In this document: positions 5,656-48,298 of the stretch, one piece after another
How the letters are laid out: the number at the start of each line of letters is the position of its first letter
How positions within the stretch are numbered: position 1 is the first letter of the stretch
Assembly (NCBI RefSeq): GCF_014041935.1
Contig: NZ_CP059491.1
Span: forward strand, 3,286,001-3,350,000
DNA: 64,000 bases
Reading direction: 5' to 3'
DNA from: Gordonia jinghuaiqii
GTDB taxonomy: Bacteria; Actinomycetota; Actinomycetes; Mycobacteriales; Mycobacteriaceae
Notes under the pieces: generated by a model
Database searches by the model: none
What the model was told of the DNA's origin: nothing
Seen by the model: only the letters and a program-made list of their open reading frames with translations
Made by a program: the position numbers and the translations under genes

Positions 5656-5708
5656 CGAGGCCTCGTGCCACCCGAAAACGCGAGTGCCGACTCTGCCTTG
5701 TCTCTCGG

Positions 5709-32155: not shown

Positions 32156-32274
32156 CGGTGACTTCTGCGGACCACTTCTGTTGAAGCGGGACGCTCCGCG
32201 AATGTCTCAGAAAGGTTACGAAATCGTGGGCGCCCTGTCCACTAGGCGACGGACACTCAAACCCCACGCATTTC
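32156..32274 (-). promoter_or_regulatory. Region expected to hold the promoter of the riboswitch transcript
   Basis: Between the Cys-rich gene stop and the riboswitch. No convincing -35/-10 pair could be chosen by eye; transcription could also read through from the Cys-rich gene. Confidence 0.35.
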
Positions 32275-44411: not shown

Positions 44412-44760
44412 CGTCCGTGACGCGGATGAGACACGCCGCGCTCGGGGCCGTCCATCGTGAGCCAATTTCACGCCTTCCTGCTCGCTCACCGGCGCCCTTG
44501 CGCCGAGGTGAGTGCATGCCACATGACCTGCAAGGGCAAGAACCCGCCGTGGGCACACGGCAATTCTTGCACCTAGTACTACGCAGCGTAGACCAACCGG
44601 GGGAAGCTCTCGTTATTGGGGTTGATCCGGTCGTGTCAGCTCTGCGGCGTGCGCGAACAAGCCAGGTCGGAACCGTCTGTTGCTCTTCAGGCATACTCGG
44701 ACGCGGCCCGGCCGTGGCCGGCCGTGGGTGTGGATTGACAACGGATTGGGAGAAGTAAAC
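44412..44760. promoter_or_regulatory. ctaC/asnB divergent control region
   Basis: No gene. It holds the perfect 13-base palindrome CTACGCAGCGTAG (44579-44591), a GCAAGAA/TTCTTGC inverted repeat around it on one side (about 44537-44569), a CATACT -10-like box near 44693, and the asnB ribosome site GGGAGAAG. The palindrome is a candidate operator for either gene. Confidence 0.5.
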
Positions 44761-46686
44761 GTGTGTGGTCTGCTCGGCCTGTTGACCTCCGACGCATCGG
44801 CAGCCGATGTCGTCGACGCGGTGGCGGTGGCCTCACACTGCATGCGGCATCGCGGACCCGACGAACCGGGGACGTGGCACGACGAGGACATCGTCTTCGG
44901 CTTCAACCGGCTCTCGATCATCGACATCGAACATTCCCATCAGCCGCTCCGGTGGGGTCCCCCGGAGAGTCCCGACCGCTACGCGCTGGTGTTCAACGGG
45001 GAGATCTACAACTACCTGGAGATCCGCGCCGAACTCGCCGCGGACGAGGGCGTCGAGTTCCGCACCGAGGGTGACAGCGAGGCCATCGTCGCCGCATTCC
45101 ACCACTGGGGTCCCGACGCGGTGCGCCGCCTCCGCGGCATGTTCGCGTTCGCGATCTGGGACACCGAGACCCGGTCGTTGTTCCTCGCCCGCGATCCGTT
45201 CGGCATCAAGCCGCTGTTCGTGGCGTCGGGTCCGGGCGGGTTGATCTTCGGCAGCGAGAAGAAGAGCCTGCTCGAACTGATCGAACGCGTCGGCCTGTCG
45301 GTGGATCTCGATCCGCGCGCGATCGAGCACTACACCGTGCTGCAGTACGTCCCTGAGCCCGAGACCGTGCACGCCGACATCCGCCGTCTCGAGTCCGGCT
45401 GTCATGCGACCGCCACCCCCGGCAGTCCCCTGTCGATCCGGCGGTACTTCACCCCGCAGTTCGGTGTCCGGCCGGTCACCGACGCCACCCGCCAGAAACG
45501 CTACGACGAGATCGCCGACGTCCTGGCCGATTCGGTCGCCAAGCACATGCGCGCCGACGTCACCGTCGGTTCGTTCCTGTCCGGCGGCATCGACTCGACG
45601 GCCATCGCCGCGCTGGCCATCCGGCACAACCCCGACCTGATCACCTTCACCACCGGTTTCGAGCGGGAGGGTTACTCCGAGGTCGATGTCGCCGCGGAGT
45701 CGGCCGAGGCGATCGGCGCGCGCCACGTCGTGAAGGTCGTCGGACCGTCGGAGTTCATCGGGGCCATTCCCTCGATCGTCTGGTATCTCGACGATCCGGT
45801 TGCCGATCCCGCGCTCGTGCCGCTGTACTTCGTCGCCGCCGAGGCGCGCAAGCACGTCAAGGTCGTACTCTCCGGCGAGGGCGCCGACGAACTCTTCGGC
45901 GGGTACACGATCTACAAGGAACCGCTGTCACTCGCACCGTTCGACCGGCTGCCCCGCGCACTGCGCCGTGCCGCGGGCAAGGTGTCCGACCGCATCCCGG
46001 AGGGCACCCGCGGAAAGAGCCTCCTTCATCGCGGCTCGCTGACTCTGGAGGAGCGCTACTACGGCAACGCACGCAGCTTCGACGACGCCAGGTTGCAAGC
46101 GGTGCTGCGCGACTACCGCCCGGAGTGGACCCACACCGACGTCACCGCGCCGATCTATGCGATGAGCGAGGGCTGGGATCCGGTGGCGCGCATGCAACAT
46201 CTCGATCTGTTCACGTGGCTGCGCGGTGACATCCTGGTCAAGGCAGACAAGATCACCATGGCCAACTCGCTCGAACTGCGTGTGCCCTTCCTCGATCCGG
46301 AGGTGTTCGCGGTCGCCGAGCGTCTGCCGCACGACGAGAAGATCGCCCACGGCACGACGAAATACGCGTTGCGCAAGGCACTCGAGCAGATCGTCCCGGC
46401 CCACGTGTTGCATCGCAAGAAGCTCGGCTTCCCGGTTCCGATCCGCCACTGGCTGGCCGGCACCGAGATGTTCGACTGGGCGCACGAGACGATCGCCCAC
46501 TCACAGACCGACCACATCTTCGACAAGTCCGCGGTGATCGCGATGCTCAACGAACACCGGGAAGGCGCGGTGGACAACAGCCGTCGCCTGTGGACGGTGC
46601 TCATCTTCATGGTGTGGCATGGGATCTTCGTCGAGGGCACGATCGTGCCCGAGATCATCGACCACACCTACCCGGTGCGGGTCTAG
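44761..46686 (+). CDS. asnB: Glutamine-hydrolysing amidotransferase AsnB (LtsA type)
   Basis: Class II glutamine amidotransferase plus synthetase, 641 residues. The N-terminal nucleophile Cys2 (MCGLLG) is processed from GTG at 44761; RHRGPDEPG, FNGEIYNY and the ATP loop SFLSGGIDSTAIAAL with SGEGADELFGGY are clear. Annotated as asparagine synthetase, but in corynebacteria (LtsA) and M. tuberculosis the orthologue in this position amidates meso-diaminopimelate of peptidoglycan precursors, affecting lysozyme and antibiotic tolerance; the gene order favours that role here. Ribosome site GGGAGAAG. It diverges from ctaC. Confidence 0.93.
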   Translation: MCGLLGLLTSDASAADVVDAVAVASHCMRHRGPDEPGTWHDEDIVFGFNRLSIIDIEHSHQPLRWGPPESPDRYALVFNGEIYNYLEIRAELAADEGVEFRTEGDSEAIVAAFHHWGPDAVRRLRGMFAFAIWDTETRSLFLARDPFGIKPLFVASGPGGLIFGSEKKSLLELIERVGLSVDLDPRAIEHYTVLQYVPEPETVHADIRRLESGCHATATPGSPLSIRRYFTPQFGVRPVTDATRQKRYDEIADVLADSVAKHMRADVTVGSFLSGGIDSTAIAALAIRHNPDLITFTTGFEREGYSEVDVAAESAEAIGARHVVKVVGPSEFIGAIPSIVWYLDDPVADPALVPLYFVAAEARKHVKVVLSGEGADELFGGYTIYKEPLSLAPFDRLPRALRRAAGKVSDRIPEGTRGKSLLHRGSLTLEERYYGNARSFDDARLQAVLRDYRPEWTHTDVTAPIYAMSEGWDPVARMQHLDLFTWLRGDILVKADKITMANSLELRVPFLDPEVFAVAERLPHDEKIAHGTTKYALRKALEQIVPAHVLHRKKLGFPVPIRHWLAGTEMFDWAHETIAHSQTDHIFDKSAVIAMLNEHREGAVDNSRRLWTVLIFMVWHGIFVEGTIVPEIIDHTYPVRV

Positions 46687-46715: not shown

Positions 46716-46800
46716 ACCGCCCCAGAAAACCGCCCTCCCAAGGCAATTCGACGACGATACGTCGCTCGTCAGCCTGTGGAGGGCGGTTTTCCGGGGCGGT
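46716..46800. terminator. Very long hairpin between asnB and gdx
   Basis: 23-base arms at 46716-46738 and 46778-46800 pair with a single mismatch; both contain GCCCT/AGGGC and AAAAC/GTTTT segments. The 39-base loop contains smaller GACGA/TCGTC pairing. It ends 8 bases from the gdx stop and serves both convergent genes. Confidence 0.75.
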
Positions 46801-46808
46801 TCGGTGTG

Positions 46809-47123
46809 TCAGTGCGCGAGCTTGAGACCGATCACGCCGCCGACGATCATCAGCAGGAAGAACACCTTGACGGCCGAGACCGGTTGCTCGCCGGTGGCCA
46901 TCGCGTAGACGACGGTGAGCACCGCGCCGATCCCCACCCAGACCGCGTAGGCGGTGCCGATCGGGAGTTCGCGCATCGCATAGGCCAGACCGGCCATGCT
47001 GGCGGCCAGCGCCGCGACGAACACCAGCGTCGGGGCGAGCCTGGTGAAACCCTCGGACTTGCCCAGCGCAGTGGCCCATACGGCTTCGAGAACACCCGAG
47101 ATCACCAGGATCAACCACGACAT
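46809..47123 (-). CDS. gdx: Guanidinium exporter Gdx (SugE-type SMR transporter)
   Basis: Four-helix small multidrug-resistance protein of 104 residues that exports guanidinium in exchange for protons, working as an antiparallel dimer. The essential membrane Glu is in ISGVLEAVWATALGKSEGFT, and the W-A-x-A-L-G-K-S-x-G-F-T block is the Gdx rather than the Qac signature; GTAYAVWVGIGAVLTV is helix 3. The frame is open to 47189, but ATG at 47123 has GGAGG seven bases upstream and matches family length. A guanidine-III riboswitch lies 14-56 bases upstream, confirming the substrate. Confidence 0.93.
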   Translation of the reverse strand: MSWLILVISGVLEAVWATALGKSEGFTRLAPTLVFVAALAASMAGLAYAMRELPIGTAYAVWVGIGAVLTVVYAMATGEQPVSAVKVFFLLMIVGGVIGLKLAH

Positions 47124-47136
47124 CACGACCTCCAGC

Positions 47137-47179
47137 GGGCCGTCTTGTCGCACACCGGGTACAGCACCCCTCGTCCGGG
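47137..47179 (-). promoter_or_regulatory. Guanidine-III (ykkC-III) riboswitch
   Basis: Minus-strand leader reads CCGGACGAGG, then a short variable arm, TACCCGG, a spacer and GACAAGACGGCCC, the conserved pieces of guanidine-III in the right order and spacing. The GACAAGACGG segment lies just before the gdx ribosome site, so ligand-dependent pairing could control ribosome access and turn gdx on with guanidine. Confidence 0.92.
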
Positions 47180-47275
47180 AGCCCGCCATCGGGGCTCGCC
47201 TTCCAAGGTCTCACGTCCGGCGAACGGAGGGCAACGTCAGACCGGTCACCACCGGGCGTCCGCCGGACGCGGTGA

Positions 47276-48298
<1,023 letters not shown>

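Follow-up and report, generated by a model that had tools for sequence, protein, structure and literature searches.

The gdx gene of Gordonia jinghuaiqii belongs, with a probability that we put at about 90%, to a self-contained unit controlled by a guanidine-III riboswitch. The unit would consist of a dedicated promoter, a guanidine-III aptamer located at the 5′ end of the mRNA or close to it, and gdx, which encodes a predicted guanidinium exporter of the small multidrug resistance (SMR) family. The binding of guanidinium would lock the pseudoknot and triplex of the aptamer and free the start site, enabling the production of Gdx, which in turn would carry guanidinium out of the cell in exchange for protons. 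The locus was analysed within a 64,000-nucleotide stretch of genomic DNA, referred to here as the window.

Organization of the locus

The elements of the locus are arranged on the minus strand in the 5′ to 3′ order of a PfkB-family kinase gene, a promoter-like block, the aptamer, a Shine-Dalgarno (SD) sequence, gdx, and an inverted repeat, followed by the convergent asnB gene (Table 1). The kinase gene is presumably cbhK. The open reading frame of asnB is listed from position 44680, and we chose 44755 as its start.

Table 1. Coordinates of the features of the gdx locus within the window.
Feature	Position	Strand	Description	Basis
Convergent neighbour	44755..46686	plus	Asparagine synthase asnB	TIGR01536, 471.3 bits (cut-off 267.1)
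Long inverted repeat	46717..46801		Between gdx and convergent asnB	By eye
gdx	46809..47123	minus	sugE-type SMR guanidinium exporter, 104 aa	PF00893, NF008512, Gdx-Clo
Shine-Dalgarno sequence	47128..47133	minus	GGAGGT, directly 3′ of the aptamer and 4 nt 5′ of the ATG	Sequence
Guanidine-III (ykkC-III) riboswitch aptamer	47134..47200	minus	24 invariant columns common to 29 other aptamers	RF01763, full length
P2 stem	47137..47168	minus	47168–47161 with 47143–47137; bulged U (or U-C mismatch) at 47166	
Putative anti-start strand	47140..47151	minus	GCGACAAGACGG, in the conserved core and P2; predicted to pair with the start region without ligand	Prediction
Pseudoknot stem	47155..47178	minus	CCGG 47178–47175 with CCGG 47158–47155	Sequence
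Possible −10 element	47205..47210	minus	GACCTT, 18 nt after TTGCCC	Sequence; prediction
Promoter-like block	47230..47242	minus	GTCTGACGTTGCC (conserved form GTCTGACATTGCC), containing the likely −35 element; putative promoter	Prediction
Upstream neighbour	47276..48253	minus	PfkB-family carbohydrate kinase, cbhK-like	PF00294, 138.7 bits

The putative −10 element would place the 5′ end of the mRNA at or near the beginning of the aptamer. In some relatives (for example, loci L002 and L008), a TAnnnT motif can be recognized by eye at the −10 position; the proposed −35 and −10 elements are absent from the output of a sigma-70 consensus scan. The inverted repeat downstream of gdx is a possible bidirectional terminator, and a terminator scan restricted to short loops found none between gdx and asnB. 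PADLOC returned no hit.

Guanidine-III aptamer

The identity of the aptamer was computed directly. The covariance search that the preliminary description had proposed, run with 4227 families of Rfam models against the whole window, matched RF01763 (Guanidine-III) over 67 of 67 model positions with a score of 62.7 bits, above the gathering score of 36. The E value of 1.4e-10 rules out a chance match, and a search of the 5.18 Mb genome for RF01763 returned this copy alone at E ≤ 0.001. The three sequence motifs that had been attributed to a guanidine-III pseudoknot, with the strand left unstated, follow one another in the described order on the minus strand, and all lie within the match: CCGGACGAGG at 47178–47169, TACCCGG at 47161–47155, and GACAAGACGG at 47149–47140. 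The motif had been placed about 14 bases in front of gdx; it is indeed close to the gene, but the distance needs correcting, as GACAAGACGG ends 16 nt before the ATG codon (47123–47121), with 10 nt separating that codon from the end of the full aptamer. Among 30 aptamers, the two CCGG strands of the pseudoknot are paired in 99.2% of cells, and the stem exhibits no covariation because three of its four pairs never vary. We infer that the window copy binds guanidine.

An in-frame ATG at 47189 on the minus strand, located inside P1 of the aptamer, opens a 126-residue frame (ORF 46809–47189). This codon is probably unused, since the relatives of the protein match from the ATG at 47123. The minus strand of the window contains two other regulatory RNAs: a c-di-AMP (ydaO/yuaA) riboswitch at 32167–31938 (75 bits, gathering score 38) and an mraW RNA motif at 5679–5578 (66.1 bits, gathering score 50).

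Predicted switching mechanism

According to the available text of a review (PMC12186494), guanidine-III is an ON switch that exposes the SD sequence and also protects the mRNA from RNase E. The exposure of the ribosome-binding site is inferred in the accessible part of Huang 2017 (PMC5696562), where the mechanism is termed 'less well established'. In the mechanism proposed here, the strand GCGACAAGACGG would, without guanidine, pair with the beginning of gdx (SD sequence, ATG, and codon 2) and thus hide the start site. We give this exact pairing slightly less than an even chance of being correct.

Over the set of loci, the aptamer strand and the gdx start are more complementary than expected by chance. 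The fold in which GCGACAAGACGG pairs with the segment from the SD sequence through the ATG and codon 2 recurs as an alternative among the 29 leaders that were folded. The duplex formed between the invariant strand and the gdx start has a mean energy of −9.2 kcal/mol in 96 loci, versus −6.0 kcal/mol at 190 SD-bearing starts (Mann-Whitney p = 2.8e-13, a value that is too small, since the loci are related). The control starts are mechanically called ORF starts with an SD-like string, taken from the same DNA, and are not annotated genes. The duplex of the window copy reaches −12.6 kcal/mol, an energy attained by none of the 190 control starts. Against a null of synonymous codons and shuffled spacers, the means were −8.9 versus −6.6 (Wilcoxon p = 2e-11, likewise too small because of the relatedness of the loci); locus by locus, p was below 0.05 in 17 of the 96, and was 0.07 for the window copy. 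For ten gdx genes at which no guanidine-III aptamer was scored, the mean was −6.3 kcal/mol, but two of these controls (L081 and L097) have an ACGAG...CCCGG string upstream and may carry unscored aptamers.

The ensemble folds contained 7.5 expected pairs between the strand and the start region, versus 3.0 in chimeras with the starts of other genes, and at least 6 expected pairs were found in 61 of the 96 loci. The pairing is not universal, as some loci (L032, L080, and L090) form almost no duplex. The duplex and ensemble tests covered 96 of 100 aptamer–gdx loci; those left out were L087 (start unclear), L105 (far start), L011 (wrong start), and L061 (duplicate of L016).

Some of the folds speak against the predicted OFF state. 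When P2 was enforced in the window copy, the unpaired share of the SD sequence changed from 0.35 in the free fold to 0.20, i.e. the site became less open, whereas over the 29 leaders, which include L011 with its wrong start, the openness shifted in both directions. The nested-energy comparison of the ON and OFF states, calculated for the window copy, leaves the pseudoknot out of account. The available text of Huang 2017 (PMC5696562), citing in-line probing, states that the pairing of P1 and P2 persists in the absence of guanidine, the moving part being the third strand. An OFF state that melts P2 does not fit this account, unless the start region was missing from the RNA that was probed. None of the titles and abstract beginnings available to us deals with the pairing of guanidine-III aptamers with start codons; the OFF pairing may nonetheless have been published.

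The control of gdx might instead be exerted mainly through mRNA stability, with the folded 5′ aptamer blocking the scanning of RNase E and the sequestration of the SD sequence playing a minor role. This possibility, which is compatible with the main model, appears rather unlikely to us, at somewhat less than one chance in three. The RNase E mechanism is given for guanidine-III in the consulted part of the review (PMC12186494), which cites Richards and Belasco 2021, and the promoter-like block, located 27–29 nt upstream of the aptamer, would make the transcript begin with the aptamer. Nevertheless, the aptamer strand has greater complementarity to the gdx start region than to other SD-bearing starts, a property that a mechanism based on stability alone does not need. 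Within the proposed model of a freed start site, transcript stability may be equal in weight to SD sequestration. If the pairing of GCGACAAGACGG is correct, the first codons of gdx (often ATG TCN TGG) would be part of the switch, and a mechanism that is less than well established would take the concrete and testable form of base pairing between GCGACAAGACGG and these codons.

Occurrence of the aptamer and gdx

The pair of a guanidine-III aptamer and gdx is an ordinary and common arrangement in Actinomycetota, and in Gordonia, gdx is normally preceded by a guanidine-III switch. The aptamer adjoins gdx in 30 of 37 Gordonia genomes, including that of G. jinghuaiqii (gdx E ≤ 1e-10). The remaining seven have neither an RF01763 nor a gdx match; the genus-wide RF01763 search was run with stricter filtering, at the cost of some weak matches, and absence here means not found. 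Among 24 further genomes of the order, RF01763 was present in seven (one under the cut-off), gdx in nine, and both in five. The reference genomes yielded 572 qualifying gdx loci, 80 of which were kept; a guanidine-III aptamer was found at 71 of them, and a guanidine-II aptamer at two.

Two tandem gdx genes follow a single aptamer in two Gordonia genomes (G029:C1:3675226-3675850 and G035:C23:10546-11170); such a pair could encode a heterodimeric exporter. At a further locus from the same order (L017 1246-2734), which has an aptamer but no gdx, a guanidine-III aptamer precedes an ORF that looks ureohydrolase-like (named by eye from its sequence). A guanidine-I aptamer is located just upstream on the opposite strand, which positions two classes of guanidine riboswitches back to back.

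Probable transfer of the unit

The unit in the cbhK/asnB junction of one Gordonia subgroup was probably gained by horizontal transfer. It adjoins cbhK at the asnB junction in nine Gordonia genomes, in eight of which both flanks are present, while in the ninth (G012) the contig ends. In the other 27 searched genomes, the unit is not at this junction; 25 of these have asnB in the fetched stretch, with a gap of 18–413 nt between cbhK and asnB and no gdx match in between. With or without the unit between them, asnB lies beside cbhK in 33 of 36 loci of the genus (the cbhK search left out G024). The neighbours of the 17 other Gordonia copies examined mostly differ, and a few are common to two or three copies.

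Allowing at most two mismatches, the promoter-like block GTCTGACATTGCC was found 27–29 nt 5′ of the aptamer in 12 of the 30 loci of the gdx branch to which the window copy belongs and in none of the 72 others, and 9 of 10,200 shuffled upstream stretches also matched it. The 12 loci are the nine Gordonia copies at cbhK/asnB and one copy each from Mycolicibacterium (L031), Nocardia takedensis (L069), and a plasmid of Kocuria rosea (L203). The Kocuria plasmid has a length of 110 kb and is typed as mobilizable; its copy has the same bulged P2 as the window, and 79% of the queried stretch matches, with 79.1% identity. The recurrence of the block, the P2 subtype, and gdx together in Gordonia, Mycolicibacterium, Nocardia, and on the Kocuria plasmid suggests that they were transferred as one unit, which we consider likely. 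The gdx branch that holds the window copy has a support of 94/92, below the star level of the tool.

It is also conceivable, but we think improbable, at roughly a one-in-four chance, that Gordonia had the cassette ancestrally and underwent many losses or relocations of it, without horizontal transfer. The grouping of all Gordonia copies as one clade was not rejected by gdx DNA (p-AU 0.21), by protein (0.42), or by a reduced set of 40 rows (0.34), but was rejected when the aptamer and gdx were combined (p-AU 0.020 and 0.012 in two overlapping data sets). The tested grouping was named after the first tree had been calculated. The trees were built without L016, L018, L087, and L105, and also without L136 where the aptamer was needed. 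An ancestral cassette is further opposed by the bulged P2 and the block, which the junction copies share with Mycolicibacterium, Nocardia, and the Kocuria plasmid, and which occur in 0 of 19 Gordonia copies at other sites. Transfer as one unit is therefore the better reading, although unproven. The titles and abstract beginnings available to us include none on the transfer of guanidine-III together with gdx in Gordonia.

The block and the aptamer subtype on a mobilizable plasmid suggest how a regulated metabolite pump may be gained complete with its sensor. A more far-reaching combined model, to which we give less than even odds, would have the most conserved, core-forming strand of guanidine-III aptamers also act as the anti-start strand that pairs with the SD sequence, ATG, and codon 2, and would have the promoter, subtype, and exporter move together between actinobacterial families, including by plasmid.

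Guanidine-III aptamers were observed on two more plasmids. In Pseudonocardia plasmid pBCI1-1 (L206 2117-2884), the aptamer is followed by a tandem pair of SMR genes, and transposase genes lie no more than about 2 kb away. In Tsukamurella tyrosinosolvens plasmid 23 (L204 2572-2971), an aptamer occurs together with one SMR gene.

P2 subtype with a bulged U

The P2 stem of the window copy has one non-standard position. In a straight register it contains a U-C mismatch, and it forms seven pairs if U47166 is bulged out. The bulged form is GGGGUGCYGU or UGGGUGCCGU paired with ACGGCCC, and is found in 21 of the 29 loci of the gdx-tree branch that holds the window copy and in none of the 71 other loci. 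Among 30 aptamers, P2 is paired in 93.3% of cells, and three of its pairs are changed on both sides. The 12 doubly changed cells and the covariation score of 0.193 were reached in 0 of 500 shuffles; three doubly changed pairs were reached by 62 of the 500, while 378 of them reached the observed number of pair types.

It is highly improbable that the bulged P2 reflects a drifted aptamer that has lost switching or responds to a close relative of guanidine. The prevalence of the bulged U in place of the straight seven-pair P2 within the gdx branch would be in line with drift, and methylguanidine, aminoguanidine, ethylguanidine, and agmatine also bind the pocket according to the available text of Huang 2017 (PMC5696562). 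However, the window copy and 29 other aptamers have all 24 invariant alignment columns, and the bulged subtype recurs in several families, which suggests that it is under selection.

Predicted exporter and guanidine-related genes

The family of the exporter, like its adjacency to the aptamer, was determined by direct computation. The gdx product matches Pfam PF00893 with 80.2 bits (cut-off 23.7), and contains the Gdx-type sequence block, VWATALGKSEGFT, that the preliminary description had reported. The nearest solved structure is that of Gdx-Clo (E = 6e-24, versus 2e-9 for EmrE). Residues E13, W16, S42, Y59, W62, the GxG fulcrum (G64-x-G66), and K101 are all present in the alignment with Gdx-Clo, which, together with the family match, bears out the earlier assignment to Gdx; the binding-site residues are as named in the available text of PMC7695847 and PMC9574504. 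SugE (NF008512) has the highest score of the 21 NCBIfam models listed, 104.1 bits, and we do not claim the NCBI name SugE because the cut-off of 126 bits was missed. A Qac-type multidrug exporter, and hence a mismatch between pump and sensor, can be dismissed as extremely improbable and is contradicted by W16, which is conserved in Gdx and replaced by Gly or Ala in Qac (PMC7695847, in the part available), and by the closer match to Gdx-Clo than to EmrE, even though the weaker NCBIfam hits include Qac models and SugE is below its cut-off. The protein is predicted to transport guanidinium.

Searches of the G. jinghuaiqii genome gave neither a match to PF00491, the arginase/ureohydrolase family, nor a guanidine-I riboswitch at E ≤ 0.001, and therefore the visible handling of guanidine is limited to export. 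The urea/guanidine carboxylase model gave 26 partial matches in the genome, the best with 977 bits, none above the cut-off of 1303.85. Free guanidine may plausibly be a genuine metabolite in G. jinghuaiqii, as the preliminary description had claimed. The genome additionally contains two tandem SMR genes (G000:C1:2828611-2829251) without a guanidine-III match nearby.

Comparison with known systems

In the original description of the ykkC-III motif, emrE and speB already appear as the genes downstream of it (Weinberg 2010, PMC2864571); as far as the available text extends, that description covers the arrangement in the window without essential difference. A ykkC-III element linked to guanidine removal has been published for Gordonia polyisoprenivorans 135 (PMC11117675); in the part of that paper available to us, both the RNA family and the genus are the same as in the window.

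The exporter is 44% identical to Gdx-Clo (PDB: 6WK5, 6WK8, 6WK9) over its full length, and every checked binding-site and fulcrum residue is kept. The predicted protein appears to have no functionally notable difference from Gdx-Clo.

We take the P2 of the window copy to map base by base onto positions 12–18/35–41 of the aptamer from Thermobifida fusca, whose crystal structure has been solved. The T. fusca RNA, as presented in the accessible text of Huang 2017 (PMC5696562), has in common with the window copy the full-length family match, the pseudoknot strands, the ACGA and GACAAGACG segments, a seven-pair P2, and the location 5′ of the ribosome-binding site. The two RNAs differ in P2, which contains the bulged U (or U-C mismatch) in the window copy and is Watson-Crick throughout in T. 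fusca, and in the gap between the aptamer and the SD sequence, which has a length of 16 nt in T. fusca, whereas in the window copy the SD sequence follows the aptamer directly.
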